Shown here piece after piece: positions 13,650 through 38,158 of a DNA stretch of 41,589 nt. Under the pieces are notes generated by a model. The model was not told the DNA's origin. It saw only the letters and a list, made by a program, of their open reading frames with translations, and did no database searches. Location of the stretch: positions 1 through 41,589 of the IMG/VR virus record IMGVR_UViG_3300024346_000165. One strand, written 5' to 3'. The position numbers and the translations under genes were made by a program. Within the stretch, counting starts at the first letter, position 1. Each line of letters starts with the position of its first letter. The stretch comes from a virus.

Positions 13650-14783
13650 TTAGCGGAGAGTAAATCTCTCCTTTTGTTTTTCGAGGATACCTGCGGAATT
13701 GCATTTATCCAGAAATTCTGTAGCTCGCTCGCCTTTCTCACCTTTCTCAGCTTGGTCTCCGACCAGTTTAGCTGACTTGGTGACTGGGAATGCGGCTAGC
13801 TCTAGGAGTTCGGAGGAGTCGACACCCATTTCTTCAGCTATATCAAGCAACTTGTTGTTGCTCACTATCTTGCTAGGTGCTCCCATGCTGATAAGGCGCA
13901 GGGATGGGAACTCAATCCCATCTTTTGCCATATCGACTGCCCTTGTGCGTAAGCGTTTAGCCCATGCCTCGACGATCTTTGAAATGTTCCATAGCTCTTC
14001 GATAGCTGCGGGGTCTTCAACGGACTCGATGTCAATATTGGTGAAGTCTTGCCTCTTCAGGTTGGACGCCACATCTAGGACTAAGCCGCCCAAAGATGGG
14101 CATCGGTCTTCGTGGAGGCAGAACCTACAATACTGAGTGGGTGTGCAGTCAGAAGCATCTGGGCATTGACCACCACCCCACTGAGGGCGGACACGCTCAC
14201 CTTCCTTGATGATGCGGCTAAGAACCTCAGTCAGGACTGACATCTCACTCCGATCAAATGACCCAACAATAGGGTCGCTTGATCTTTGTGGCACATAGAA
14301 GGCAAACTCAATACGCTCAATGTCAGGGTGTTTCTGGAACACACCTAGGGTGTAAGCCATTGCTTGCTGGTTGCTGTGTGGTGGGTCAATTAGGCTGATG
14401 CCTGTCTTGTAGTCAGCGAGAACGGCAAACTTACCATCCTCGGAGATGGACAGACGGTCACATGTACCAAATGTCTCACACCCATCAAGACGAATCTTGA
14501 GGAAGACCTCGTGATAATCATCTATCAGTTTTAAATTAGGGAATGATTCAAGTAAGTGATCATCTTCCATCTCTGCACATCGTGTGTAGAGATCAAGCTC
14601 CTCTTCGTTATGTAGTGCGCTTGGGTCACGCACCTCTAACGCTTCGTGGATGCGGGTTCCCATCTCAGCAGCGGCACTTGTACCACTGCGTCCTTGAAAA
14701 CCCGCACATGAAGCGATGTACTTTAACTGGCTGGGGCTGAACTCAGCGTGTCCCCTGTCAGCGTGCGGCTGCTTAGCTGGCAT
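13650..14783 (-). CDS. PD-(D/E)XK nuclease, Cas4/RecB-like (DUF2800-type)
   Basis: A 377-residue nuclease. The catalytic core is visible: MGTRIHEALE (H46), EVFLKI (E92), FGTCDRL (D109) and VLADYKTG (D124, K126), which match the H, GxxD and (D/E)xK elements of RecB/Cas4-type exonucleases. A cysteine group follows (CPDASDC...YCRFC...DRCP), as in members that hold an iron-sulfur cluster. It would resect or process DNA ends during recombination and replication. The start ATG overlaps the end of the upstream 60-residue gene by 11 nt. Together with the SNF2 helicase, RuvC-like resolvase and SSB-position gene it forms a recombination module common in phages. Family confidence is high; exact polarity of digestion is unknown. 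Confidence 0.85.
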   Translation of the reverse strand: MPAKQPHADRGHAEFSPSQLKYIASCAGFQGRSGTSAAAEMGTRIHEALEVRDPSALHNEEELDLYTRCAEMEDDHLLESFPNLKLIDDYHEVFLKIRLDGCETFGTCDRLSISEDGKFAVLADYKTGISLIDPPHSNQQAMAYTLGVFQKHPDIERIEFAFYVPQRSSDPIVGSFDRSEMSVLTEVLSRIIKEGERVRPQWGGGQCPDASDCTPTQYCRFCLHEDRCPSLGGLVLDVASNLKRQDFTNIDIESVEDPAAIEELWNISKIVEAWAKRLRTRAVDMAKDGIEFPSLRLISMGAPSKIVSNNKLLDIAEEMGVDSSELLELAAFPVTKSAKLVGDQAEKGEKGERATEFLDKCNSAGILEKQKERFTLR

Positions 14784-14955: not shown

Positions 14956-15000
14956 AATGGTTTTTGGTTTTAGTTTATGTTTTGGTTTTGGTTTATCTGC
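14956..15000 (-). promoter_or_regulatory. Long AACCAAAA-type leader
   Basis: The minus strand reads AAACCAAAACCAAAAC and again AAAACCAAAAACC before the ATG at 14955. It has no G between the preceding stop region and the start codon and no Shine-Dalgarno match. It is the longest such tract in the replication operon. Confidence 0.6.
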
Positions 15001-19989: not shown

Positions 19990-21360
19990 ATGACTGTTTA
20001 CGCACCAAACTGGCACACACTTGACCCCAACGCGAGAAAACCTACCCCTAAGGATACTCCCGCGCAGAGAAAGGCAAAAGAAGAGGCTGCAAAAACGAAA
20101 GCAGCAGAGGAGGCAGCAGCAGCGGCAGCAGCAGCGGCAGCAGCAGCAGCAGCTAAGGATAAGCCATCCTCAGGAACTAATTTACAAGAACCAGAATACC
20201 AAGCGATTCTAGACAAGGGAGCCTTCTTTGACGCGCCACGCGCAGGGGTGGAAGTAGAGGGTACGGGTGCAGCCCCAGAAAAAGGCAACAAGCCTAAACC
20301 AAAGCTGAAATCTACCACACCCAAAAGTGATGCTCAGTATTTTAACCAAGCAAAAGTCTTACCAACTTACGACTACCGTACAGGTAAGTCACGTGCCCCA
20401 ACAGCACGCGAGCTTCGCATGATGGAGGGCATGGTGAATGAAAATGAGAAGCGCAGAATACAGATTGGCGAGCGCAAAGCCTTTGCTGTAGATTTGCAAA
20501 GCGCACGCTTCGACCCAGCCAAAGCAACTTCCCAGCAACGGGCTGAGTTTTATAAGCGTGGTCATTCCATGGGGCTGACACCAGAGCAGATTAACACATA
20601 CACCCAGAAATATCTCGGGGGTGGGAAGAAGTCAACGTCTGGAGGTGGAGGTCGTTCGTATAGACCAACTTATCCTCAAGGCGGGAGGCCCAAACCCATG
20701 CCGGGTTCCGACTCGCAGAGGCCGTTGGGTGGTTCTGGTTCTTTGTGGACAGGGAGCACAAGTGACCCTGCGAAACCAGTCGGACCTAGCTACAGTAAGT
20801 GGAAGAAGTTAGCCAAAGAAGCACGTGCCTCAGGCAACACCCAAGCAGCCAACTATGCCTACATGAGATACATGCAGGACAAATCAACCACACCAAACAT
20901 CCGCTCACAGGCGTGGAGACAGCAGGAAGAAGCACGCAATCGTGCGCTAGGCGCAGCCCGTGGCTACGGCTACGGTGGGGGAGGCAGCGGCGGTGGGGGA
21001 GGCGGTGGAAGCAGGAGCCGAAACAGAGCGCCTTCTTATTCGGGGTATGATGATCGAACAAATGCTTACAGGAGACAAGGCGCTGGTGCTGGTATATTTG
21101 CTTACGGCAGTGGTGCTGGTGGGAATGCCAACTCTGGGTTAAGCAGAAGCCAGAAAACCGCAATGGATATTGTAAGCAATAGAAAGTTCGGTTCTAGGAA
21201 ACCGAAAGATTATGCTGGAATAAGTAAAGACTTCTTGGCAAAAGAAGACGCGGCTAAGCGCGCAGCTATGAGCACACTAAGTGACGCAGAGTTTGAGCAG
21301 TATAAAAAGCACTTGAAGTCTGGCATGAATGCTCAGTCTGCAATGAAGCTAATAAGATAA
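19990..21360 (+). CDS. Ala/Gly-rich structural or internal virion protein
   Basis: A 456-residue basic low-complexity protein. After a Pro/Lys-rich start it has a 14-Ala run (codons at 20113-20154), a Lys/Pro linker, and a long disordered middle. Residues about 320-350 are a Gly/Tyr/Arg/Ser stretch (YGYGGGGSGGGGGGGSRSR). The C-terminal 90 residues look like a folded helical domain (SDAEFEQYKKHLKSGMNAQS). It starts 5 nt after the previous stop, and its stop TAA overlaps the next ATG by 1 nt (TAATG), so the genes are translated together. An internal or ejected virion protein fits the position before the giant gene; no family is recognised. Confidence 0.65.
   Translation: MTVYAPNWHTLDPNARKPTPKDTPAQRKAKEEAAKTKAAEEAAAAAAAAAAAAAAKDKPSSGTNLQEPEYQAILDKGAFFDAPRAGVEVEGTGAAPEKGNKPKPKLKSTTPKSDAQYFNQAKVLPTYDYRTGKSRAPTARELRMMEGMVNENEKRRIQIGERKAFAVDLQSARFDPAKATSQQRAEFYKRGHSMGLTPEQINTYTQKYLGGGKKSTSGGGGRSYRPTYPQGGRPKPMPGSDSQRPLGGSGSLWTGSTSDPAKPVGPSYSKWKKLAKEARASGNTQAANYAYMRYMQDKSTTPNIRSQAWRQQEEARNRALGAARGYGYGGGGSGGGGGGGSRSRNRAPSYSGYDDRTNAYRRQGAGAGIFAYGSGAGGNANSGLSRSQKTAMDIVSNRKFGSRKPKDYAGISKDFLAKEDAAKRAAMSTLSDAEFEQYKKHLKSGMNAQSAMKLIR
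20113..20154 (+). repeat. GCA/GCG trinucleotide run coding polyalanine
   Basis: Fourteen consecutive alanine codons, almost all GCA with GCG and a final GCT. The trinucleotide period allows slippage without loss of frame, so length may vary between relatives. Confidence 0.8.
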
Positions 21361-22232: not shown

Positions 22233-25200
22233 ATGCCTGAACAAAGAACACAATTAAGACCACTGGGAGTTTATGACGACCCCGAAAGCAAGCCCGTAGA
22301 CTTTAGCTCCTTCTCCACGTGGGCAGCAGAAACCAATGCTGATGTCGACGATGCTAAGAGTAGATCTCAATATGGGGATTACGTCCGCAATAGTTACTTA
22401 GAAGCTGGGCTTCTTGACAACCCCGAAGAGGGTGGGAAGATTGAGTCTTACATTCAGGAGGGTGTCATCACATCATTAAGTGAGGGAGGCTTTGTGGATC
22501 TCGACGACCCAGAGGCTGTGGAAGAAATGATGTCGTTCGGTAACGACACACCCTTAGACAAAAAACTAGGGTATATTCAAAACTACTATGACGAGGACTC
22601 GGAGGAGTGGAACATTGCTGAGAAATATCTACGGAACAATGAGGCTCTCGGTCAGGCAACGTCAGACGTTGCGGAAGACGCTGATGTATTAGACCGCGCA
22701 TCCTCCTACGAAGAACAAGCTCTCGCTCTCATAAACGGAGACGCTTACCAGAAAGCTTTACAGTATGCTGTGGACTCAGGAGCTACGCCCATGGCGCGGT
22801 TACGTGATAAGGAAACAGGGGAAGAATATTACAAAGGCGGAAAGATGCTTGATGGCATGTCTTACGCTGACGCTGTAAAAATCTCTATTGCTAATGGCTC
22901 ATTGTCCCCTTCAGACTCAGGGTTTGCGGGGTCTCTTTTCCAGAAGCAAAGAGGATCAGCCTTGCCTGAATACAAACGTGCTGCGCTATCTAAGACAGAC
23001 AGGATGTTGTCTGTGATGTCTAGTAGAGACGAAGAGGGTGGTGGTATGAACGACGAGGCAACCATCATGAAGATGGATGTCATTAATGAGAAGCTTGAGG
23101 ACGGCGAGGACGCAGACAAAGAGCTAGCAGAGTTATACCAATACCTAGAATACTCACGTCTCTTGGACAAGGGTGAGTTACCAGATTTCGAAGACTTTAA
23201 AGTAGCAGCGACGGAAAACATCAAGAAGCAGAACTTGTACAAAAAAGAAGTCAAGGCTGCTGGCGACGCTGACGTAGGCAGTAATCTGCTGTTGTCTCAA
23301 TACAATGACCCTGTGCTACACCCTGCCGCCGCAGTAAATGATGAGGTGTTTAGAGCAACATTACTCGCACACCCAGAACTGGGGGAGGATCAAATCAAGG
23401 CTCTTGTTCAGAGCCGAGAAGATTTTATTACTGCTAACTACGGTTCTTATGGTGAGATCCTGTCTAAGAGTAAATACGCAGATAAGTGGAATAAGCATAG
23501 AGATGCTGGTCTTGCCGCAGGTAAGAAGAAGCGGGATATACTCACAGAGTACATGTCCGACCCAGACAACTACAACCAAACCAGTGACTTCTGGTCTGGG
23601 ATTGGTGCATCCATAACTGAGGCTTATGAAGGATTAGGAGCAGCCATACCTGCTATAGTGTTTGACTCTGAGTGGGGGAAGGGTGTACTCCAGAAGAATG
23701 CGGAAGACTCCATGGTTCGTCGCGAGGTTGCGAGCATGTATGGAAATGAATACGGGATGACGCGAGACGTAGCCGAGACTCTTGCCCCAATGTTGGCTGA
23801 CATGGCTGTGTCGACAGCACTGGCAGTAGGCACGGCTCACGCTGGTGGAGCGGGTGGTGTTGCCTACGCAGTGGGTGCTTCTGCTGCTCGCAACGCAGCG
23901 ATGAGTGCAGCTAAGGCTGGTATCAAAGGTGCAGCTTCCAAGTTCGTACAGTCCAAAGCGTTCACCGCCTCTTACGCACGGCAGTTCGGGAAGACCATAA
24001 AGACAAGGGCGTTCATGCCAAAGATTGGCGAAGGGGTTGAGGAGGCTGCTGAGCGTCTCGCCCTTACTAACAAGATCACGGGAGGTGCTAAGGCACTCAA
24101 AGACGGTAGTGCTGTCGAAGCAATTAAGGCATACAATAAAACATTCACTGGTAAGTATGCGGCACAGGTGGGGGTAGCCCTTCCTGCTGCCAACCGATCC
24201 GCAGGAGCTACATATGGAACCGTTTATAACCAGCTTGATGGTCTGTATGAAGACATGGGTGAAGAGGAAAAGAACGATATTGCTATGGGGGCAGCCTTGC
24301 AAGCGGGTGCATTCACAGGTCTACTGACTAGCGCATTCGGTATGTTTGGCTTTGGTGGTATTGATGATGCTCTCTTGAATGGAGCCACTGCAAGCCAGCT
24401 TCGGACAGTGATGGGACCTCTGTTGTCCCGTGGTGGTGAGCCAATGTCTAAGGGAGTATTTAACAAGGTAGCCTCTGGTTTGATGACGGAACTCATCAAG
24501 AAAAATAGGTTACTGTCTGTACAGGGACTCAAGGAGTCTGCTACAGGAGCTATTGAGGAAGGTTTAGAGGAGGGTATTGACGAGTTTGTAAATGGGTTAG
24601 TGATTGATGCGTCCACGGATCAGGAAACACCTTTCTTAGATAGAATGTTGCAGTCATTCCACGCCGCTCAGGTTGGTGGAATCATTGGTGCAGGTGTTCC
24701 CGTCGTGCAGCGAGTGGGTGCTTTTGCAAATGCAAACAAAGCACTCGCACTAGACCCGAACAAGGGAGCCAGAATCGAGGCTGACTTCACTAACGAGCTT
24801 ACGAAGAGGTTGAGTGATAAAGGTAGTCCTCTCTCTGCTGATGTTGTCAGTGGGATACTCAACTCCAGTGCAAGAAATAAAGACGTCTTATATGAAGACA
24901 GGTTGTCTGCGCACAGCATCGTCAAGAAGAACTTGCAGACTTTGAATGAAGCGCAGAACGCTACGCCTGATGAGCTAGCAGAGTTGTCAGGTGTAACGGA
25001 CTTTGACATGCCTACGGGTGATGCGCCTATCCCTAAGAACACCCCAATTAGTGACCTCAGTGCCGAGCAGCAAAGAACCTATGCTTTCCAACGTAGGATG
25101 AGGGAGGTGCAAACCGAACCCATGGGTGAAAGCACACGCATGGATGTAATACTGGGGGAAAGAAAGATTGAGGCTGGCACACCACTGTGGGAATTATCAG

Positions 25201-28200
25201 AACGAGAATACACTGACTACACACGCGCTGAGAATAAAATAGCAGAGCTTCGTGGAGACTCGGCGCCAGACATACCAGCGTATGACAGCAAGCTGATGTC
25301 TCAGAAACGTGAGACAGCGAGACTAGCGGAGGAAGAAGTCACGCAGGAGCAGAGTAAAAAAAGATCTAAAAATATTAAAGACGAGGTTCCAACTGATGAA
25401 GCTCCTGCCTTTAGACCTATCCCCACCATTGAGTCAGACATCAATAACATCACTGCTGATCTTGAGAAGGAGACTGACGAAGGTGTCGTACTAGCTCTAG
25501 AAGATGAGAGGGCTACGTTAATTAATGAGTTGGATGAGGCTGTTCAGAATGAAGCGGAAACAGGCGTAGACCAAGCAGATGTAAACGCTCAGCTTAATGA
25601 GGAGACTAATCCTTTAGAGACGAAGACTGGAAAAGACACCCCTCCAGCTAAACCCGTAGCAGCCGAGGCGGAGACTGAAGAGGAAGTTGAGGCTGAAGAG
25701 GAAGATGTCCCAGAAGCTGCTGCCCCTGCGATGGATGAGGTGAGGAAGAATCTCAAGTCCGTTAATGCTAAACTCGCTCGCCTAAGAAAGAAGCATAATG
25801 CCTTAAAGGATGCCAATACAACTGCGCAAACTGACACTGAGGTTGAGCCAACAGAGAGGAAGCACTGGACGGACGACCCAGAAATTTATAGGCAAGTCGC
25901 TGAGCTTGGTGCAGAGATCGCACCACTTAGAGAAGAGGCTGCAAGCTTGAAGGCAACTTTGGAGGAAGCCAAAGAACAAGCTAAAGCGGTAGCTAAACCC
26001 GCTAAGCAGACAGAGACTACAATTACTGAAAGTGGTGCTGAACTAGACAACGGAGAAGCAGGTGAGGATATCGAAGGGGAGACACCAGTCAAGAAAGTCA
26101 AGTCAACTAGGAAGACTAAGTCCAAGACCTATGGTAGAATACCTGCTAAAGATATTAAGGCAGGTACATCTATTGTTTATTACGCAGCAGACGCTAGTGG
26201 TCCACTACAAATGGTGACTGCTAACATGAGTGCGTCAGAATTTTCGGTGCTGCCTGAAGGTGACGAGACAGACACACGTGTCGTGGAGGTTACCGACGCT
26301 GACACAAGAGAGGTATACTACCTCGTTGGTAAGGACGACACACCCCTAGTAGAGATGGAGCGTGTCTCACCGAATGAAGAGTTCGCTGGCATCAATACCG
26401 AAGACCCGTCTCTAGTTGCATACCCATCAAAGGATGTGCGTAAAGCTCGTCGCAATCAGAGTATGGATGCTCTGACAAACCCCGACCAACTACGCTCACT
26501 GGAGTCAGTTGCTGTTGAGAGGCTGCGTTCTAACCCCCTTGACATAGAGGCACAGACTCAGATGGGTTATGCCCAATCGAAGTTAGCAGACATGGGTGAG
26601 GCGAGCTTTGTGGACACGGAGAAAGCACGACAGGTGGATGAGAAAGAGACCGAGCAAGCCAACAGGATTCTTACCGCATGGGAAAGACAAAGCAGATCCT
26701 CCGCCGACCCCGACGACGCTAATTTTGTACCGCCAAAACAGGAGTTTGCAGCCGAAGCTGCGCCCACAGAAGACGATCTCAATGGTAAGAACATCAAGCC
26801 ATGGCCGTATAAGCCCACCGACAACGAGCGTGAGGCTGCTCTTTTAGATGCTCTGTCTGATGAAGCGCTTGCTGAGTTGGTTCCGATTGATAGTGCTCCT
26901 CAGAAACTAGCATCCCTACGAGGGGAACAGGCGTTGTCCTCGCCTGAAGCGGTTCAGCAGTGGCAGATCAATCAGATCCGAGACATTATCCTCAGTGGAT
27001 ACCCCGTCACTATTGGGCAGGGTGAAGCCAGAGGGCTGCTTCCTCAGTCAAAAGACTTCTTGTCACAGGTTGACTTGCCTGAAGGTGAAGACATCAAGAG
27101 TTGGCGTAAATATTTCCGCCATGTGATATCCTCAAAGATTGCGGAGGTATACCCAACCATTGACACTAGCACATATGTCGAAGCATCACAATCAAACGTG
27201 GAGTTGGCAAAGAAGCGTGCGGCGAAAGCATCTCAGACCGCAGCTTATGTTGAGTGGTCACCACCAAAGCTACAGGTGCAGCGGTTAATGGAGAATGACA
27301 CTAAGTTTTCTAATGAGATTGATCTTGAATCTAAGACGCAGTGGTCTGACGATGAAATTACTAGGGCTGAACAAGTGTTCTCTAAAATTTCACAAGACCC
27401 AGAGCTTCATTCAGCTACCAAGAGAGCAGCAGCAACACAACTCAAGGCAATCGCTCAAGCACGAAAGGATTCAACTCGACCTAAGTTTAAGCCTGACCTT
27501 TCTAAAGGTATCCAAGCAGTCAAGACTGACAGCAAGGTGACTAACTATGCAGTTAACGAGGATGGTTCGATCAGCTTGATGGATTCTGGTAAAGCTACTT
27601 ACTTCATCAACAAAAATGGGTCTGGTATATTCAACAATGATCCTGTTATCATAGCAGAGATGCTGCTTAGTGGCGTGCCTGTGAAGATACCTAAAGCTAT
27701 CTTAACAAACACAGGTGAGGATAGCACCAACATCACTCGGTCGCAGATCAACCCAGCTATTAAGTATGACCAGCAGGGTAATGTGTACCGTGTGCTTCGA
27801 TTGAATGGACAGGGTAATAACTATGAGGTAGTTCAACACTCATCCAGACTGTCGGGCGTGATGCCTGATGAAGGATACAGTGAGAAGACGGCGTCGGTCG
27901 TGAAGGCTATTAACGCACAAGCTGTTGATTCACTCAGAGTTAATGCAGCCAACCTAGCTTCCGATGCTAAAGCCTACTCTGAAAACAGTAACCACATTAT
28001 TCTGGAAGCACCAAAAGAATCATATGAGGTAAGCCAAATACTGGATTCCTTTGAGGGCTTCATAGAATCAGCGAGACGATGGCTTGATTCCTATGGAGGT
28101 AACCCTGTCCCAGAAAGTATTGAGGGGGAATCACAATCACGGAGAGATCGACGCGCTGAGATGGAAAGGGTTAATGCACGGCAAGCCGCATTCAACCTTA

Positions 28201-31200
28201 CTGGACTCTTCGGGTTAAACCGTGCCTCTAATAAAGGTAGGACTATGGATGACTTTGATTCAGCCCCACTGCTTAATGGTTTGTGGGCTGAGTATACTCT
28301 CATGGTTAACCTTGCAGGGATCAGGGCACAGCTTGCAAAGGAGCAGTTGATATCTTCGGAGACAAAGAATGGTAAGTCGACAGGTAAGTTTGTTGCCAAG
28401 ACAATTAACGGCAAGACAGACAAAGCCGTTGATAGATTCTTAGAGTTCTTTAAATTCGATAGCACAGAAGAAGCCGCCGCAGTACTGGGGGAGAGGATGA
28501 GAATCCAGCGTTCATTCTACGACCCAGCAGAACGCACCTACCAAGCCATGAGTGCGGAAGCTAAGGTAGCGAGGAACAAGAAGGTGGTGCTTGCTTACCT
28601 TGAGCAGCACGTGTTGAACCATGACCGATTGAGTGATGGTGTCGCGCCTTCGTTAACTGACATTGGTCGGACAGTGCGTGACAGGATCAGAGGACAGAAT
28701 GAGGTGAGGTCAGGACGTGATCCACTAGCAAATGCTACCTCTACCTCAGGTGATAGTGAAGGTAACATGATGACAGATACCGAGCGTGCCGCTCTGTATG
28801 AGAGACAAGGGATGGCTGGTGTTGTAGAAACTAAAACTAACCTGACCGATCTAGACCGCACCGACGATGATGCGGTGGGAACAGAAGAAACTGATGGGTT
28901 TAACATTGGTATGACTGAGGAACAAGTTGCTACCCTTGGGCAACGGTTCTTAGACCAGAGATTTAAGGAGGCTAATGCTAGTGTAGTTGAAACGATTAAC
29001 GCAGACCCCAAAGCTAAGCGTGCTTTTGTTGACATGCTACGCACAACAATCCACGCAGATCAGCACAGACCAGATAAGTTTTATGAGACGATGAACGTGT
29101 CCATGTTGTGGAGTGCCATGGCGGGTAGCGTGACTCATGCTACGCACAAGCACAACGCTGACATGCTCAGCTTCTTGAAGCTGCTGAAGTTTAATGCATT
29201 GGAGTCTCAGCGTGACATGGTTGATGCTGTCAAGTATGTGCTGTTCCCTGACAACGTGAGTGAGACCTTCGCTAAACCATACCAAGAGCAGTTAATTGCA
29301 TGGGGTGTGCCAGTGTCAGGGAAGGCAGGTCTTGTGAAGACTATGGGCTTCCTCAACAACCTGAGTAAGACTCTCCAGTCTCACCACGCAGAAGCGGCAA
29401 TCACTGAGGCGCAGCGTGGTGATGCTATCATCGCCAACACAGCAGATGCTGAGCGATTAGGTTTAGTTAATGGTGACCCATCATCAGTCGTCAAAGCGTT
29501 GAATGTAATCAAGCAGACTTCGGCTAATGAGAACCACAAGCTAGTTGCTGAGCTACTGCTTGAAGATCCCGACTTTATCCAGAGTGTGGACTTCCGTATG
29601 AGCAAGCAGTCTGACTTATCGGGTGGTCGTTATGACCTAGGAACCGACGGGTCACACACAGTGAGCCTGAACATAGCAGGGTATAACGGTCGCGGGTTAG
29701 AGAACGTGCTGCTTGAAGAATACATACACGCCTACCTGTCTGAGACACTGAGCAAGCCAGCGTCACAGTTGACTGCTCAGCAAAAAGCAGGGGTTGAGAG
29801 ACTCAAGGGGCTACACAAATTAGCAAAGGCTGCGTATGAAAAAGAGGGTATCAAACATTCATCAGTAGAGTATAGCTTACAGAACATGACTGAGTTCGTA
29901 GCTGCCCTCCTAGTCAACCCAGATTTCCAGACGTTCATTAAGTCTATCGAACCACAAGGTAAGCAGAGAGGCTTGCTTCCCCGCTTAGTGGAAGCCATCT
30001 TCAATATGCTTAGGTCTATTGCTGGAAAGAAGCTGACTGAAACTGAGGCAAGTGCATATCAAGAAGCACTCACTGATGTGATTGACCTAGCTAGGTCATC
30101 AGCAACAAGCGACCGACCTAGCTTAGAGGCTCTTGCTGGTAATGTTATAGCTGAGAAGATCAAAGATAACACAGCACGCACTGACTCAATCAAGAACCTA
30201 CTTTCTATAGCCCCATCTATGGAGGGCACAACCCTACGTCCTGCACCCAATACCATCCCTCCTCTAGTTGATGCGGGACGTGATGTGTTCAAGAAGCAAC
30301 CCATCATGAAGGAGATGTGGGACACTGACATGGATGCTGATCAGCTTACGGATTATATAACTGATACCGCTATCCCATTCATTCGCGCATTCACACCAAG
30401 TGAGGTTGAGGTTGTCATCGTTAACCAGACACCCAAGCCACACGGTCAGGAGCACGCTATGTTTATGAAGGGTGGCAAGCTTTACGTTAGCCCCCGTGGT
30501 CTAGCTAGTCTGGTCGCACAGATTGAAGGAGACGGTAAGAACAACAGCACTGCTCTTGAAGCTACGTTCCTTTCTATCATTGATGAGGAGGTGAGCCACG
30601 TCGCGAGCTACCTTCAGCTATCTGCTACAGAGATAACACAGGTGGGGAAAGCTCTCGGCATGGATGGACTGAGCGAGGTGGCAAGAGAATACTACACTAC
30701 CCCTGAGCAAGCCGACGCTGCTATCGCTAGGCTTAGGTCAGAGAATCCTGATGAAGCAAAGGCGGAGGCAGATACACTAGTCGAGGAGCACCTACGAATG
30801 CAGTCGCAACGAGCACTGCGTGGGTATACCACTGAGGAGGACTTACTATTCTACCGCACGAACCCATCACTATTCAAGGTCTTGGGTCGATACATCTTTG
30901 GTTCTATCAAGGCGCTGGTCAACAGGCTCGCAATACATAAGAGGAAAGATTTGATTAACACCAAGGTGATCAGGCTGACTGCTGAACTGCGGCGCATCAA
31001 GGCAAGCTACCGCAGTGGAAAAACGGTAGAGTTGTTTGATCCTAACAACCCAGAGCATAACATCAATGTGCTGCGTGCTATAAGCAACGAGCCTATGACG
31101 CAGGAGATTGAAGCCTTGATGAACGAGGCTGTTACGGAGCGTGCTGAAGAGGTAGACACACCAGCCGTGAACACCATGGCTGGTCTTGGTCTGGACATGA

Positions 31201-34200
31201 GCAAGCTAGACTTTGACCATGTCCCCCACTTATTTGAGATGCCAGCTATAGCATCAGGTGCTTATGCTAAACCCAATAAGATTAGCCGTCTGTTCATGGG
31301 TGATGCAGACCCACGTGTCACTAGACTTTACCAGCAATACCAGTCATGGATGAAGGAAGGTGAGGAGACAGTAAGAAGATTTGAAACTACATTCCACAAG
31401 CTTGTCGTAAGTGCATACGGTTCTAAAGAAGAAGCACCACACTCTGTGATTGCTAAGGCTATAGGCACGAACATGACTATTGACATTGACCCTGAGATAA
31501 GGGCTGCAATCGAGGACTCACTTGATGCTGAACTCAAAGCAATCAACAAAAACCAATCCCTTAAAGGTGATGCTCAAGTAGAGGCACGCAAAGATGCAAG
31601 GGCTGGGGCACGTAAGAGATACGCTGACAAATTAAAGGATGCCTTTGATGCACGTCTCGCCTCAACAAGAGTAGAGCAAGAGCAAGCTATCAATACTATT
31701 AAGAGCACCTCGCCTGAGTTAGCTGAGCACATCCTAGTCATGCGTAATGACCTGATTGATGAGCTATCTAAGATCATAAAGAATACATACAACACTAAGG
31801 ATGACGGTGGAGTAGACAACTACTTGGGTATTAAGATTGATGCATCGTTAGGTGTCTACGTCACACGCTCTTACCGTATGTTCACTGACCCAACTTACTA
31901 CCAGACCATCAGAGATAGCTTGGCACTAGGTAAAGAGGGTGACCACGAAGCTTTGATCAATGAAGCCGAGTCTCTATTCAGAACACAATACATGGAGACA
32001 CAAAGGGAGAAGAACAGCAAGCTCATGCAGGACAACCGCAAGTCTGATGAGGAGGTAGATCAAGAGTCCCTTCGTTTCTTACAAGAGAACCCAGACTACG
32101 CACGCGAACAGCTACTGAAGTTCGTTGACTCCTACCAGTCTTCACGAACAGGAGGTAGTAATGCAGGGCTAGACCCAGTAACTGATAGCTTGAAGCGTAA
32201 GGAAGACTTGCCCGAAGTATTAAGGAAGGCACTCGGTGAACACACCAATGAGGAAGAGGGGCTGACAAACCTGCTCCGCTCATATGCCACTGTCATGACC
32301 ATGGCAAGCAAGCAGTCCTTCCTTAATAACGTAGTCACTCTCGGTCGTGCCCTCCATGATTCGGAGGCTACGATAGAAGACAAGTTCCTCATGACTCCTG
32401 AAGAATGGGAAGAAGCTAGAATGGTAGACCCTGACCGCTATGGTGGGTGGCAAAAGATTCAAGGTTCACGAACCAGTATACATGATCCATTGCTAGGGCT
32501 GCGTGCACCACCTGAAGTGGTAGAAGATCTCGCCAACCTGACAGCGAGCATGATGCACGACCCACACAACGATGCCGCAAAACTTATGAGGCGAATGAGC
32601 ACAGGGTTGTCAAGGGCATCGGGTGCAGCCATGGGTATCAAGACACTTGGTAACCCAGGATTCTACGTGCGTAACGCGGTATCTAACGTGCTCTTCTTCG
32701 GTCCCTCACAAGGTTTCTTTGACGTTCCGAAGATGGTATCACAATTCAAACAAAGTCTAAGAGACATGAGTGTTGATGGTGTGGATGCCAGACTCATCCG
32801 ATACAACGGGCTTCGTCTGCTTGGTGACAACATGAGGACAGAAGTTATTCGTGAGTTGCTACATGGAAAGGCGGAGGAGAATGATGTGATGCGTGAGCTT
32901 AACATCATCCAAGAAAAGATCAGCAAGATAGAGGCAGCAGAAGGACTAGGAAAAGCTGGAAGTTGGGTCAGTCAGAAAACTGAGAAGCTATATGAAAGGG
33001 CGCGAGACTTGGCAGATGCAATGGATGCCTTCTACAAGATAGCTTACTTCGAACACGAACGTGGTATCCTGCAAGACGCTAAAGACTTGGGTATGGGTGA
33101 CCGCTACAGTGAGATGAGTGATCGTCAACTAGAACTAGAGGCTGCACACAAGGTGCACAAGACAGCACAGATGGCTAGCCAACGAGTCGAGATAGCTAAG
33201 GAGTATGCCAAATCCCCAGCAGGTTTCTTGTTCGCACCATTCATAGGGTTCACTGCTGATGTATTCAGGATACCCATCAACACATGGAAGATGGTGAAGG
33301 AGGAGATTAGTGATGCTAACCCTGTCATCCGTAGACGTGGCACACGTAGACGCACAGGTCTACTGTCTGTGATGGTTGGTGGTAGTGCTATTCTACCTAC
33401 GGCTCTGACCATCCTTGCTTCTGGTCTAGACTTAGAGGAGAAGGACGCGCTAATGCAGGGCGAGAAAGACTACAACAAAGGTAAGTCATACTTCTTCTTT
33501 AGGAAAGCGGATGGGACTATCGTGTATGTAGACATGACTTACATTAATCCCTTCGCCATGCTAGTTGACCCAGCCTTACGTGCGGGAGAACAATTGTTCC
33601 TCGGTAACTTTAAGCAGACTGCGGTTGCCATGATGAAAGGGTGGGTCGGTGATACCATAGCTAAAGAACAGATCTTTGCGGGAGCAGCTTGGCAACTATT
33701 CAGGAATCAGGATGCAGCAACAGGCGCACCTATCTATGACATGAAGGTGGATGGTATTGATGAGCTACTCATAAAGATGGGCGACCATCTGTGGACCAAT
33801 GCCTTTGAACCAAACCTAGCTAGGGTAGGTGGTGAGGTATTGAATCGTGCTGGTATGGAGACTGAAAGCTTTGATGAATCAGCCTTTGGTCAAGCTGCCT
33901 CTCTGATCTACCCCACTAGAATAAAGACCTTGGATGTAGAGCGGAACTTCAGACGCATGATGTTTGCTGAGAAGGACTCCGCAAACAACTCACGCAAGCA
34001 ACTGTTTGAACTATACAAGCGTGCACCTATGACTGATGAAGCAGTGCGCGACATCTACACTGACTACTATGAACGTAGCTACAAGCATGACCAGAGGTTA
34101 TACAGATACACCAAAGCATTCCAGAGTTTAGGTATCACAGACTACCAGATGCGCACACTGATGGTGAAGGGTGGCTTCGGTAAGAGACACACAGATAACA

Positions 34201-34343
34201 TACTCTACCTTGGTATCACTGAGTCACCGAGTATCAGTCCACGATTGATGCAAGGTCTTGAAGAGCGTGGTCTAATAACTAGAGCCAACGCGTACTTCAA
34301 AGCGTACGCTAATGCAGTGCGCGTGCGCTCACTGCGTCAGTAA
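22233..34343 (+). CDS. Giant polyvalent internal/ejection virion protein
   Basis: A 4036-residue protein, the largest feature here, read from ATG 22233 after the leader ACCAAACCGTTTCAGTT. Visible parts in order: charged helical N-terminus; Gly/Ala-rich hydrophobic, membrane-active-looking segments at about 520-570, 685-710 and 810-840; a long acidic disordered stretch at about 1110-1320; a small beta domain near 1310-1390; helical regions; two zincin-like segments with EExxH (2495-2499 and 2785-2789); long coiled-coil regions; a segment NPGFYVRNAVSNVLFFG near 3474; and a hydrophobic helix VMVGGSAILPTALTIL near 3712. The C-terminal third resembles the shared core of large polyvalent phage proteins, which enter the host with the genome. 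I see no RNA polymerase motifs. Domain boundaries are rough. Confidence 0.8.
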   Translation: MPEQRTQLRPLGVYDDPESKPVDFSSFSTWAAETNADVDDAKSRSQYGDYVRNSYLEAGLLDNPEEGGKIESYIQEGVITSLSEGGFVDLDDPEAVEEMMSFGNDTPLDKKLGYIQNYYDEDSEEWNIAEKYLRNNEALGQATSDVAEDADVLDRASSYEEQALALINGDAYQKALQYAVDSGATPMARLRDKETGEEYYKGGKMLDGMSYADAVKISIANGSLSPSDSGFAGSLFQKQRGSALPEYKRAALSKTDRMLSVMSSRDEEGGGMNDEATIMKMDVINEKLEDGEDADKELAELYQYLEYSRLLDKGELPDFEDFKVAATENIKKQNLYKKEVKAAGDADVGSNLLLSQYNDPVLHPAAAVNDEVFRATLLAHPELGEDQIKALVQSREDFITANYGSYGEILSKSKYADKWNKHRDAGLAAGKKKRDILTEYMSDPDNYNQTSDFWSGIGASITEAYEGLGAAIPAIVFDSEWGKGVLQKNAEDSMVRREVASMYGNEYGMTRDVAETLAPMLADMAVSTALAVGTAHAGGAGGVAYAVGASAARNAAMSAAKAGIKGAASKFVQSKAFTASYARQFGKTIKTRAFMPKIGEGVEEAAERLALTNKITGGAKALKDGSAVEAIKAYNKTFTGKYAAQVGVALPAANRSAGATYGTVYNQLDGLYEDMGEEEKNDIAMGAALQAGAFTGLLTSAFGMFGFGGIDDALLNGATASQLRTVMGPLLSRGGEPMSKGVFNKVASGLMTELIKKNRLLSVQGLKESATGAIEEGLEEGIDEFVNGLVIDASTDQETPFLDRMLQSFHAAQVGGIIGAGVPVVQRVGAFANANKALALDPNKGARIEADFTNELTKRLSDKGSPLSADVVSGILNSSARNKDVLYEDRLSAHSIVKKNLQTLNEAQNATPDELAELSGVTDFDMPTGDAPIPKNTPISDLSAEQQRTYAFQRRMREVQTEPMGESTRMDVILGERKIEAGTPLWELSEREYTDYTRAENKIAELRGDSAPDIPAYDSKLMSQKRETARLAEEEVTQEQSKKRSKNIKDEVPTDEAPAFRPIPTIESDINNITADLEKETDEGVVLALEDERATLINELDEAVQNEAETGVDQADVNAQLNEETNPLETKTGKDTPPAKPVAAEAETEEEVEAEEEDVPEAAAPAMDEVRKNLKSVNAKLARLRKKHNALKDANTTAQTDTEVEPTERKHWTDDPEIYRQVAELGAEIAPLREEAASLKATLEEAKEQAKAVAKPAKQTETTITESGAELDNGEAGEDIEGETPVKKVKSTRKTKSKTYGRIPAKDIKAGTSIVYYAADASGPLQMVTANMSASEFSVLPEGDETDTRVVEVTDADTREVYYLVGKDDTPLVEMERVSPNEEFAGINTEDPSLVAYPSKDVRKARRNQSMDALTNPDQLRSLESVAVERLRSNPLDIEAQTQMGYAQSKLADMGEASFVDTEKARQVDEKETEQANRILTAWERQSRSSADPDDANFVPPKQEFAAEAAPTEDDLNGKNIKPWPYKPTDNEREAALLDALSDEALAELVPIDSAPQKLASLRGEQALSSPEAVQQWQINQIRDIILSGYPVTIGQGEARGLLPQSKDFLSQVDLPEGEDIKSWRKYFRHVISSKIAEVYPTIDTSTYVEASQSNVELAKKRAAKASQTAAYVEWSPPKLQVQRLMENDTKFSNEIDLESKTQWSDDEITRAEQVFSKISQDPELHSATKRAAATQLKAIAQARKDSTRPKFKPDLSKGIQAVKTDSKVTNYAVNEDGSISLMDSGKATYFINKNGSGIFNNDPVIIAEMLLSGVPVKIPKAILTNTGEDSTNITRSQINPAIKYDQQGNVYRVLRLNGQGNNYEVVQHSSRLSGVMPDEGYSEKTASVVKAINAQAVDSLRVNAANLASDAKAYSENSNHIILEAPKESYEVSQILDSFEGFIESARRWLDSYGGNPVPESIEGESQSRRDRRAEMERVNARQAAFNLTGLFGLNRASNKGRTMDDFDSAPLLNGLWAEYTLMVNLAGIRAQLAKEQLISSETKNGKSTGKFVAKTINGKTDKAVDRFLEFFKFDSTEEAAAVLGERMRIQRSFYDPAERTYQAMSAEAKVARNKKVVLAYLEQHVLNHDRLSDGVAPSLTDIGRTVRDRIRGQNEVRSGRDPLANATSTSGDSEGNMMTDTERAALYERQGMAGVVETKTNLTDLDRTDDDAVGTEETDGFNIGMTEEQVATLGQRFLDQRFKEANASVVETINADPKAKRAFVDMLRTTIHADQHRPDKFYETMNVSMLWSAMAGSVTHATHKHNADMLSFLKLLKFNALESQRDMVDAVKYVLFPDNVSETFAKPYQEQLIAWGVPVSGKAGLVKTMGFLNNLSKTLQSHHAEAAITEAQRGDAIIANTADAERLGLVNGDPSSVVKALNVIKQTSANENHKLVAELLLEDPDFIQSVDFRMSKQSDLSGGRYDLGTDGSHTVSLNIAGYNGRGLENVLLEEYIHAYLSETLSKPASQLTAQQKAGVERLKGLHKLAKAAYEKEGIKHSSVEYSLQNMTEFVAALLVNPDFQTFIKSIEPQGKQRGLLPRLVEAIFNMLRSIAGKKLTETEASAYQEALTDVIDLARSSATSDRPSLEALAGNVIAEKIKDNTARTDSIKNLLSIAPSMEGTTLRPAPNTIPPLVDAGRDVFKKQPIMKEMWDTDMDADQLTDYITDTAIPFIRAFTPSEVEVVIVNQTPKPHGQEHAMFMKGGKLYVSPRGLASLVAQIEGDGKNNSTALEATFLSIIDEEVSHVASYLQLSATEITQVGKALGMDGLSEVAREYYTTPEQADAAIARLRSENPDEAKAEADTLVEEHLRMQSQRALRGYTTEEDLLFYRTNPSLFKVLGRYIFGSIKALVNRLAIHKRKDLINTKVIRLTAELRRIKASYRSGKTVELFDPNNPEHNINVLRAISNEPMTQEIEALMNEAVTERAEEVDTPAVNTMAGLGLDMSKLDFDHVPHLFEMPAIASGAYAKPNKISRLFMGDADPRVTRLYQQYQSWMKEGEETVRRFETTFHKLVVSAYGSKEEAPHSVIAKAIGTNMTIDIDPEIRAAIEDSLDAELKAINKNQSLKGDAQVEARKDARAGARKRYADKLKDAFDARLASTRVEQEQAINTIKSTSPELAEHILVMRNDLIDELSKIIKNTYNTKDDGGVDNYLGIKIDASLGVYVTRSYRMFTDPTYYQTIRDSLALGKEGDHEALINEAESLFRTQYMETQREKNSKLMQDNRKSDEEVDQESLRFLQENPDYAREQLLKFVDSYQSSRTGGSNAGLDPVTDSLKRKEDLPEVLRKALGEHTNEEEGLTNLLRSYATVMTMASKQSFLNNVVTLGRALHDSEATIEDKFLMTPEEWEEARMVDPDRYGGWQKIQGSRTSIHDPLLGLRAPPEVVEDLANLTASMMHDPHNDAAKLMRRMSTGLSRASGAAMGIKTLGNPGFYVRNAVSNVLFFGPSQGFFDVPKMVSQFKQSLRDMSVDGVDARLIRYNGLRLLGDNMRTEVIRELLHGKAEENDVMRELNIIQEKISKIEAAEGLGKAGSWVSQKTEKLYERARDLADAMDAFYKIAYFEHERGILQDAKDLGMGDRYSEMSDRQLELEAAHKVHKTAQMASQRVEIAKEYAKSPAGFLFAPFIGFTADVFRIPINTWKMVKEEISDANPVIRRRGTRRRTGLLSVMVGGSAILPTALTILASGLDLEEKDALMQGEKDYNKGKSYFFFRKADGTIVYVDMTYINPFAMLVDPALRAGEQLFLGNFKQTAVAMMKGWVGDTIAKEQIFAGAAWQLFRNQDAATGAPIYDMKVDGIDELLIKMGDHLWTNAFEPNLARVGGEVLNRAGMETESFDESAFGQAASLIYPTRIKTLDVERNFRRMMFAEKDSANNSRKQLFELYKRAPMTDEAVRDIYTDYYERSYKHDQRLYRYTKAFQSLGITDYQMRTLMVKGGFGKRHTDNILYLGITESPSISPRLMQGLEERGLITRANAYFKAYANAVRVRSLRQ

Positions 34344-35886: not shown

Positions 35887-36091
35887 TGCCGTCTCCTCTC
35901 CCTACCCCCTGCCTTATGATGTCATGTGCATGGAGTGTGATGTCCTTAGGGGAGCAGCCAAAGGACATGGCTACTACCTTGAATGGTTCGTGGTCATCCT
36001 CGTCAAGAGATCTGAATGTGATGACCTCAAAGCCAAGGTGCTTGGAACACCACATCATATTACTTAGGATTAGTTTTCTTATTAGCTTCAT
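35879..36091 (-). CDS. Small protein of unknown function
   Basis: A 70-residue protein (MKLIRKLILSNMMWC...). The N-terminal 13 residues are amphipathic, and a strand pair follows (FEVITFRSLDED, FKVVAMSFGC). Its ATG overlaps the MarR-like stop by 4 nt (ATGA), and the end overlaps the next start by 8 nt, so it is part of a tightly packed translational unit. The leader AACCCAACAACATC lies inside the upstream gene. No family is recognised. Confidence 0.6.
   Translation of the reverse strand: MKLIRKLILSNMMWCSKHLGFEVITFRSLDEDDHEPFKVVAMSFGCSPKDITLHAHDIIRQGVGRGDGNA
35887..35901 (-). promoter_or_regulatory. Shine-Dalgarno for the membrane peptide
   Basis: GGAGAGGAGAC on the minus strand, with AGGAG (35897-35893) 6 nt before ATG 35886. 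It lies inside the end of the upstream gene. Confidence 0.65.
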
Positions 36092-36393
36092 GATGTTGTT
36101 GGGTTAACGATTGAGCTAGCAAGTGCCTTGCCCTTATCAGTTAAGGTTATGAGTACTGATCTTCTGTCGGAGTAGCTTCGATATCTCTTAGCATACCTCA
36201 ATCTCTCAAGTTTGTCGATGATACCAGTCATCGCACCCGCACTCACACCGATCTCTCGGGCTATGCTATTGGTGCTGCGTGGTGCATACATACTAAGGGA
36301 TAGTAAGGCAAGCGTCTGTCTCACACTGAGTGGGGCTGATGCGGCAGCCTTGAATTGCTCTTGTGTTTTCTTTACGTTGTTCAATATTAACAT
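36088..36393 (-). CDS. MarR-like winged-helix regulator
   Basis: A 101-residue protein with a MarR-type winged helix. STNSIAREIGVSAGAMTGII is the helix-turn-helix, DKLERLRYAKRY leads into the wing with the family-typical S-D-R-R (YSDRRSVLITLT), followed by DKGKALASSI. It is shorter than most MarR proteins (about 140) and lacks most of the dimerisation helices, so oligomeric state is uncertain. It likely regulates transcription of the accessory block or host genes. ATG 36393 follows the leader CACAAACCAATAGAACC. Its stop overlaps the next ATG by 4 nt. Confidence 0.8.
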   Translation of the reverse strand: MLILNNVKKTQEQFKAAASAPLSVRQTLALLSLSMYAPRSTNSIAREIGVSAGAMTGIIDKLERLRYAKRYRSYSDRRSVLITLTDKGKALASSIVNPTTS

Positions 36394-36411
36394 GGTTCTA
36401 TTGGTTTGTGG
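36394..36411 (-). promoter_or_regulatory. A/C-rich leader of the MarR-like gene
   Basis: The whole 18-nt intergenic region reads CCACAAACCAATAGAACC on the minus strand, from the upstream stop to ATG 36393. It has one G and no Shine-Dalgarno match. Confidence 0.55.
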
Positions 36412-36933
36412 TTATTCGTAGATGGCAATAGGGGAGATGTCCACTGCATGGGTGTAGTTGTCCCCCTCGTCATGCACCACATACTTGATAGTGAACTGAG
36501 GGAATGACTGGCTGGATACCCATTCGGGAATGTCATCACAGGTTACTTGGTTCACACAGTGTTCATCCATGAGGGCTTCAGTGAGTAATGACTTCAGCTT
36601 AGGTAGGTCGGTCATGTCAATGTCAGCCAGCACGGCAATAGCTGGCGTGTCTAGCGATGGGATTACGAGTAGTAGGTTTAGTTTCCTTTTCATTGGTTTG
36701 TTATTGGTTTGGTTTGGTTTGGTTTGGTCTGGGTTTAGTCTTCGGACATCATCAGCAAGGGCTTCAATGTAAGACCACACGTTAAGTGCGGGGTGATCCT
36801 CAAATACTTCCCACGGATGAGCTTTGATGTGCTCAAGGATGTCATCCTCATCACCATACTCGAAGATGTCGGCAGGGAATGGTGTTGATAAGAAGTGTGC
36901 ACTTGCCCACACTAGGCTTTGTTCTTTAGTCAT
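36412..36933 (-). CDS. Two small ORFs fused in frame through a leader repeat
   Basis: One open frame of 173 codons from ATG 36933 that looks like two genes. The first part (MTKEQSLVWASAHFL..., 65-70 residues) is acidic and helical. Then comes a linker NPDQTKPNQTNNKP coded by AAACC repeats, and at 36693 an ATG starts a second module (MKRKLNLLLVIPSLDTP..., 93 residues) with alternating strands. The linker DNA looks exactly like the A/C-rich leaders that precede other starts here, so the second module is probably also translated on its own from 36693. The extension upstream to 36984 uses TTG and is rejected. Neither module matches a family I know. An assembly indel in the repeat is an alternative explanation for the fusion. 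Confidence 0.6.
   Translation of the reverse strand: MTKEQSLVWASAHFLSTPFPADIFEYGDEDDILEHIKAHPWEVFEDHPALNVWSYIEALADDVRRLNPDQTKPNQTNNKPMKRKLNLLLVIPSLDTPAIAVLADIDMTDLPKLKSLLTEALMDEHCVNQVTCDDIPEWVSSQSFPQFTIKYVVHDEGDNYTHAVDISPIAIYE
36706..36730 (-). repeat. Pentanucleotide (AAACC)n repeat
   Basis: Four perfect GGTTT units on the plus strand (36706-36725) plus one variant GGTCT (36726-36730); AAACC on the coding strand. A 5-nt unit means any change in copy number shifts the upstream reading frame. Confidence 0.85.
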
Positions 36934-36950
36934 TGGTTTGGTTTGGGTTA
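36934..36950 (-). promoter_or_regulatory. AACCCAAACCAAACC leader
   Basis: The minus strand reads TTAACCCAAACCAAACCA directly before ATG 36933, with no G and no Shine-Dalgarno match. It is nearly identical to the leader at 40256-40282. Confidence 0.6.
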
Positions 36951-36999
36951 AGACCCCCACCCCTGATAAAAGAGGCAGGGTCAATGATGCAGTGTTCAG

Positions 37000-38052
37000 T
37001 TACCCAGCAATCTCAAGCACGCGTGTTGCCTCATCCACTACGGAGAGGTGATCGTTGTCTACTAGGTAGCGACCGAAGTCTACCTTCCGAGTAGCAGCAC
37101 CACCAAACTCAGAGGAGAATACCTGCTGACCTACTGGGGTAGAGATACCAGTGCCATCACCATGTGTGTAATACTCAGTCACACCATTGAAGATGTCATA
37201 GAGTGTCTCACCCCTGTTGCCCCGACCATGTCTAGCAAGGTCAGCAATACCATTGATGTGGTTGCTGGTGCGTGTGCCAAAGCCAGCACTGAGGTCAGTC
37301 CCTGCATTGACAGCAGCCTTCAAGAAGTAACCACCGATGATGGGTGCAATGTCTGTGTCTGCTACTGGTGTAGCACGTAGCTGATCCATTGCCTCAATGA
37401 ATCGCTGCCTCTCAAGCAGCACCTCATTGATCTGATTACCCATGTCCTCACACTTAGCAACGGTGTTGCCACGGTGCTGCACCTTGAGCTTGAAGCTGTG
37501 ACTACCACGCAGTGATGCTTGACATGTATTCATACACACAGTGCGGACGGCTGAGTCCATACCTACGAGGGTGATCTCCCCTGTGTGGCTCGTCATGAAG
37601 TTCAGGTTGCCTAGGTATTTATCATCACCAACCATGAAGCCGCCGTCTTCATCACCGATGGCTACTGATAAGAAGAACCAGCCCAACCCACACAGTGTGC
37701 CAGCACACGTTAGCTTATAGGGCATGTCGATACCACGCAGTGCGAGGCTCAGTGTATCCCATACCATCTCATTGGAGATGATGCTATACCTCTGGCTGCT
37801 GATGTGTAGAGGGTGGAGTTCACCATCCATTGACCGAGCAACCAAGGACTTGTGGTTGGGTAGGGTGACGTGCCTACCACCCACACTAGCAGTTACTGCG
37901 CCCTCTAAAATTTCGGGGAACAATCCGTTGCGTCGTGCGTCCGCCTTCGTGAGGCGATCAGTAGCGCATACAGTTTCGAGATTGTGCCAAGTGCGGTAAG
38001 CCTTGCCTTGTGGTACGATGATAGTATCTTTTTCTGTTTTACAATGTGACAT
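37000..38052 (-). CDS. DUF932-type protein
   Basis: A 350-residue protein of the DUF932 (phage/plasmid-like, TIGR03299-type) family. I chose ATG 38052 (MSHCKTEKD) over the upstream frame to 38118 because it follows an A/C-rich leader and leaves the hairpins at 38094-38158 untranslated. Family-like features are the LHISSQRYSIISNEMVW block near the N-terminus, GWFFLSVAI, LNFMTSHTGE, the AVRTVCMNTCQAS segment where the family has a conserved Cys-x-N, and a long helical middle (NQINEVLLERQRFIEAMDQL). DUF932 genes are frequent in phages and plasmids, but no biochemical function is established. It lies downstream of the cysteine peptidase gene in the leftward block. Confidence 0.8.
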   Translation of the reverse strand: MSHCKTEKDTIIVPQGKAYRTWHNLETVCATDRLTKADARRNGLFPEILEGAVTASVGGRHVTLPNHKSLVARSMDGELHPLHISSQRYSIISNEMVWDTLSLALRGIDMPYKLTCAGTLCGLGWFFLSVAIGDEDGGFMVGDDKYLGNLNFMTSHTGEITLVGMDSAVRTVCMNTCQASLRGSHSFKLKVQHRGNTVAKCEDMGNQINEVLLERQRFIEAMDQLRATPVADTDIAPIIGGYFLKAAVNAGTDLSAGFGTRTSNHINGIADLARHGRGNRGETLYDIFNGVTEYYTHGDGTGISTPVGQQVFSSEFGGAATRKVDFGRYLVDNDHLSVVDEATRVLEIAG

Positions 38053-38093
38053 AATGTTTTTGTTTTCTATTTTTAGTTGTTGTTTTGGTAGCG

Positions 38094-38158
38094 GTTTCAA
38101 AGAATATGAAACACGCATAGCTGCTCACTAACGCAAGGCTAGTGAGCAGGTGATGCGT
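38094..38158 (-). promoter_or_regulatory. Tandem hairpins between peptidase and DUF932 genes
   Basis: A 10-bp perfect stem CTGCTCACTA/TAGTGAGCAG (38121-38130, 38140-38149) with a 9-nt loop is extended by an outer ACGCAT/ATGCGT pair (38113-38118, 38153-38158). Next to it is GTTTCA/TGAAAC (38094-38099, 38107-38112). No clear U-tract follows on the minus strand. It could be a weak terminator, a processing site or a structured leader for DUF932. Confidence 0.55.

Follow-up and report, generated by a model that had tools for sequence, protein, structure and literature searches.

In Cluster K mycobacteriophages, the SAS/ESAS elements are short asymmetric repeats that lie just before gene starts and are associated with translation starts (PMC3203893). 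Phage gene-boundary sequences, in a model summarised in PMC3233612, are short conserved border sequences at which inter-phage homology begins or breaks off. Shine-Dalgarno (SD) sequences are scarce in Bacteroidota and some Verrucomicrobia, whose SD-independent initiation uses SD-less, adenine-rich start regions (PMC10783764). The CTTCT tracts of the Neisseria opa genes are pentanucleotide tandem repeats in which a change of unit number shifts the reading frame; the repeat lies inside one gene, usually has at least five units and varies among strains (PMC5953494).

The locus described here lies in IMGVR_UViG_3300024346_000165, a virus record of 41.6 kb that encodes a DNA polymerase, a helicase, an exonuclease, a resolvase, a terminase and a minus-strand block of small genes. 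All 41,589 nucleotides of it were analyzed (hereafter the window). When IMG/VR was searched, 390 related stretches were found, of which the nearest longer record was IMGVR 3300000115_000069 (G001; TerL 83 % identical). In the small-gene block, a tandem array of AAACC units stands between two ORFs, within an A/C-rich leader. Like SAS, the leader repeat recurs within one genome, predominantly in a single orientation, 5' of numerous small genes that are unrelated to one another, and it is conserved on different genes across the window, G001, G012 (IMGVR_UViG_3300021185_002143) and G014 (IMGVR_UViG_3300028600_000176). SAS is a fixed 13-mer (GGGATAGGAGCCC), whereas the element here is depleted in SD motifs, made up of short units and of variable length, and in many cases takes in the stop codon of the preceding gene; being A/C-rich and G-poor, the leaders do not match the SAS consensus. 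The leader thus works like SAS but is outside the SAS family. It resembles the gene-boundary sequences in lying where inter-phage homology starts or stops, whereas the repeat here is of low complexity and tied to start codons, and recombination at it is something that we infer. Its SD-less, adenine-rich start regions recall those of Bacteroidota and some Verrucomicrobia, but sampled Flavobacterium starts are A/T-rich and not A/C-rich, and the AAACC leader is rare in bacteria. In contrast to the opa tracts, the array has four to five units and is located in a leader between two unrelated genes.

We consider it probable that the array is a start leader in enlarged form, placed between two gene cassettes that can be exchanged, that the fusion of the two ORFs is read-through resulting from the unit count, and that the downstream start is kept.

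The array and its reading frames

The initial annotation described four AAACC units between two small ORFs, and a recount gave the same number, at 36725-36706 on the minus strand. They lie inside a perfect period-5 run of 25 bp (36704-36728), which contains four whole units in the AAACC register and five in the ACCAA register. Read on the minus strand, the layout is ...CTAAACCCAG, then ACCAA x5, then TAACAAACCA ATGAAAAGG, and the full inter-ORF sequence is CTAAACCCAGACCAAACCAAACCAAACCAAACCAATAACAAACCAATG. It is the only period-5 run of at least 16 bp in the window. When 200 first-order Markov simulations of the window were generated, the longest period-5 run was 17 bp and the mean of the maxima was 12.6.

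Reading frames were recomputed for 0-9 AAACC units. The outcome follows a cycle of three units: the ORFs are fused with 1, 4 or 7 units, the upstream ORF ends at TAA with 3 or 6, and ATGA is formed with 2, 5 or 8. With four units, as assembled, there is a single 173-aa frame (P0001; 36933-36412, minus strand). With three, the upstream ORF stops at a TAA 7 nt before the downstream ATG, and with five, its TGA overlaps the downstream ATG as ATGA. The frames worked out by hand in the initial annotation were therefore correct, and the ATGA coupling that it reported from elsewhere in the genome is indeed present at other places in the minus-strand gene block that contains the array. The TAA of CCAATAAC in the window leader is the counterpart of the leader stop in relatives; it is out of frame with four units and would be in use with three.

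A change of unit number shifts the frame here, as simple-sequence-repeat phase variation demands. Among 20 leaders from the window and G001, 7 show the same three-outcome pattern (the frame of the ATG open, both others closed), and most of these 7 lack a tandem array. The length of the array exceeds chance; the three-outcome frame pattern does not.

Start leaders and gene cassettes

Many small genes in the window and G001 have A/C-rich stretches 5' of the start (e.g. TAACCCAAACCAAACCAAACAAAACCAATG and AATAAACCAAACCAAACCAATAGAAACCAAACCAATG). In the 40 nt preceding the start codon, AAACC was present at 7/33 starts of the window and 16/45 of G001, compared with 5.7 % and 5.5 %, respectively, expected from coding DNA, and AAACCAAACC was upstream of 4/45 starts (0.1 % expected). 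In both genomes the regions upstream of starts are A-rich and G-poor. SD-like motifs at starts are less frequent than in the coding background (0.07-0.17 versus 0.17-0.22), which holds for the window, for G001 and for the wider TerL family, and the mean folding energy of start regions was -1.85 kcal/mol versus -8.67 for random 50-mers from the same genomes. The leaders thus combine the lack of an SD motif with weak structure, both of which are features of SD-independent start regions.

Three such leaders surround the two ORFs. The upstream gene is preceded by TAACCCAAACCAAACCA (36934-36950, minus strand), whose G001 orthologue is exactly 10 bp longer (TAACCCAAACCAAACCAAACAAAACCA). The leader of the downstream gene (36694-36740, minus strand) includes the array and the TAACAAACCA element, has no Shine-Dalgarno sequence and is predicted to be nearly unstructured (-0.8 kcal/mol for -30..+20). 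The third, CCACAAACCAATAGAACC (36394-36414, minus strand), joins the stop TAA of the downstream ORF (36414-36412) to the leader of the next gene, a MarR-like gene (36088-36393, minus strand). Counted on the sequences, both leaders that flank the upstream gene show a length difference of exactly 10 bp, equal to two units, when the window is compared with G001; as leaders differ by whole units between relatives, unit-wise change happens over evolutionary time.

Leaders often hold the stop of the upstream gene (CCAATAGAAACC...ATG). Many upstream genes terminate within the leader, at the TAG of CCAA(A)TAGAA, and have leader-encoded C-terminal tails in relatives (NPNQTK*, TPNQ*, IPTQTK* and YYNQTK*), so that the leader is a combined stop-and-start linker. 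The idea that a leader was evolving into coding sequence, raised in the initial annotation, is supported in that the leader is translated as gene tails in relatives and is read through here.

The upstream cassette has a conserved part of 67 residues (36733-36933, minus strand), with stand-alone homologues in G001 and two Vibrio phages. The G001 gene encodes a stand-alone protein of 72 aa (92 % identical in the DNA match; 96 % amino acid identity over 67 residues), with 10 synonymous and 3 non-synonymous codon changes relative to the window. Its stop is a TAG within the leader, the next gene is an unrelated one, and at the place of the array the G001 leader is non-tandem and has an internal stop. 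Vibrio phages BUCT194 and vB_VpaP-MS02, one of which is recorded as Schitoviridae, contain a 71-aa homologue alone (35-38 % identity).

The downstream cassette encodes 93 aa from its own ATG at 36693 (36412-36693, minus strand). A single-sequence search for relatives of this ORF returned none; homologues with 29-37 % identity were found in G012 (two copies) and G014, where they start at the equivalent ATG and occur without the upstream cassette. Since the upstream gene stands alone in some relatives and the downstream gene alone in others, two separate cassettes meet at the leader, and the fusion is a local read-through.

The main match between the window and G001 in the gene block spans 246 bp at 92 % identity, beginning at -16 of one ATG and extending to -1 of the next. 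The homology takes in leader, gene and leader and goes no further; apart from it, only the 30-bp leader itself and one stretch of 78 bp in the MarR-like gene match in this block. Among four genomes, 8 of 24 match ends lie at most 30 nt upstream of a start codon, the leader-to-leader match being excluded. Match ends at leaders would be expected from cassette exchange there, and intergenic divergence may explain part of them; conserved genes beside fast-changing intergenic DNA would also yield leader-ended matches, which counts against the leader explanation.

From these comparisons, the leader is an A/C-rich, unstructured, SD-less linker of 20-40 nt that is composed of AAACC-like units, in many cases together with a CCAA(A)TAGAAACC element; it terminates the upstream gene and would start the next by acting as an SD-independent initiation signal. 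Small gene cassettes would be swapped between phages by recombination at such leaders, and units would be gained or lost by slippage. Because the frame of the upstream ORF misses the leader stop at the present unit number, upstream ribosomes would run on and possibly yield a 173-aa read-through product. This would be a tolerated by-product, and the downstream protein is most likely still initiated at its own ATG via the leader. If this is right, it shows how a widespread family of uncultured phages marks the starts of its genes in the absence of SD sequences and exchanges small genes in the form of cassettes; the gain or loss of leader units becomes a concrete route for fusing or separating neighbouring phage genes. 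We regard as rather unlikely a broader version, in which the A/C repeat combines the roles of stop-linker, SD-independent start signal and recombination handle, and unit slippage sets cassettes as separate, coupled or fused, with fusions arising in evolution or even within a population.

A GC-rich, hairpin-forming stretch (36954-36980, minus strand) is located between a DUF932 gene (37000-38118) and the first leader. It has a counterpart in G014 (contig L163, about 136-160), a perfect hairpin in the same place and with a similar shape and a different sequence. The hairpin could be a terminator or a processing site.

Phase variation, true fusion and assembly error

According to the initial annotation, slippage by one AAACC unit would switch between a fused and two separate proteins, in a way resembling phase variation. 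As a rival explanation, slipped-strand mispairing in replication would toggle the products between fused, separate and translationally coupled proteins. The frames are exactly as such a switch needs and the array is perfect and beyond chance, with orthologous leaders of the window and G001 two units apart. In the ACCAA register its five units equal the cut-off of 5 that the Neisseria phasome study applied to tetra- and pentanucleotides (PMC5953494), although in the AAACC register there are only four. The array is also longer and cleaner than the other AAACC leaders in the window and G001, and slippage under selection could be an alternative to the leader explanation. Against this, the three-outcome pattern is common in array-free leaders, and G001 does not retain the repeat and the gene pair together: its downstream gene is a different one and its leader is non-tandem with a stop. 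The array length was equal in each of three near-identical contig pairs (L015/L020, L016/L024 and L022/L023) and the arrays of contigs L106, L125 and L126 were of the same length, in a small sample that is partly biased by the search pattern; the proposed check of copy number in related contigs thus revealed no variation in the few near-identical pairs available. No family match of the ORFs pointed to a surface or receptor-binding role, and our literature search on pentanucleotide phase variation in phages found nothing apt. With the two ORFs apart in relatives as well, unit slippage as phase variation was left unsupported, and we consider it unlikely. If the enlarged start leader is the right explanation, a frame-shifting repeat in a phage need not mean phase variation.

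The 173-aa protein might also be a real product, as the fused frame is open in the assembly. In that case it would be a genuine, functional fusion with a repeat-encoded linker (NPDQTKPNQTNNKP), a hydrophilic segment that joins a predicted all-helical part to a predicted alpha/beta part in a model of very low confidence (mean pLDDT 38.7). Relatives nevertheless contain each part on its own, the ATG and leader of the downstream part are retained at the corresponding position, and a search of 50 related or leader-bearing records revealed no other fusion, which makes a true fusion improbable.

It is highly improbable that the unit count is an assembly or sequencing error and that the true genome has three or five units with separate ORFs: the array locus is known from a single virus record and two single-base indels in 6.5 kb between the window and a second contig of the same phage (L049) mean that such errors may exist in one of them, but an ordinary short read exceeds the 25 bp of the array, and L049 and the window agree fully in an A/C-rich repeat leader at 14956-15000.

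Host, relatives and repeats in other contigs

A phage without SD signals points to a host with SD-independent starts. When (AAACC)3AATG was searched in 84,980 bacterial and archaeal genomes, it was found in 21 scattered places, mostly away from gene starts, and a host-wide AAACC leader was rejected as a candidate. In 28 genomes from the order of an Akkermansiaceae MAG, leader matches numbered 7 versus 3 for the control, and counts of AAACCAATG in 11 genomes did not single out a host. In searches with TerL, the 289 genomes from the phylum of the Akkermansiaceae MAG yielded one remote match, and the 296 from the phylum of a Flavobacterium yielded none. Among 50,697 phage records, no match was found for TerL or for another structural gene.

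An ORF of 4036 aa (22233-34343) occupies almost a third of the record, and G001 has a 3495-aa ORF at the same place. A 198-bp repeat is present in about 5.6 imperfect copies at positions 1-1110 of the window, nearly all of it inside the ORF at 19-2706. L049 is a 6.5-kb contig that does not extend to the array locus; its two indels relative to the window compensate each other and lie at 20156-20168, just past an AGC repeat. They represent either a local frameshift or a sequencing error in the window or L049.

In G012 (contig L162, 262-5570), an intergenic repeat of 94 nt is present in about 5-7 copies before small genes. It consists of GTTGCAATATGATATTTCAAC, the hairpin ACCCCTTAAGGGGT and then AATGACTGTCCTACTTAGACTAACGACAACACAAACC, and an ATG within it is in frame with the gene at 2845. 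It looks like a repeated promoter/leader unit. In G014 (L163, 3036-3082), about 12 units form an (AACC)n array of 47 bp that separates the stop codon of a MarR-like gene from the start codon of a gene for 146 aa. It is a better candidate for a length-variable leader than the array in the window; a search with the flank of this (AACC)12 leader found its own contig only.

(AAACC)3-5 stands directly 5' of ORF starts in L014, L017 and 12 other viral contigs. As these contigs are apparently unrelated, such leaders exist beyond this family. On the minus strand of L106 (about 14613-14639 of the reverse complement), four units of the 7-bp repeat AGAAACT lie immediately before an ATG, and this leader is equal in length to those of L125 and L126, with one substitution.
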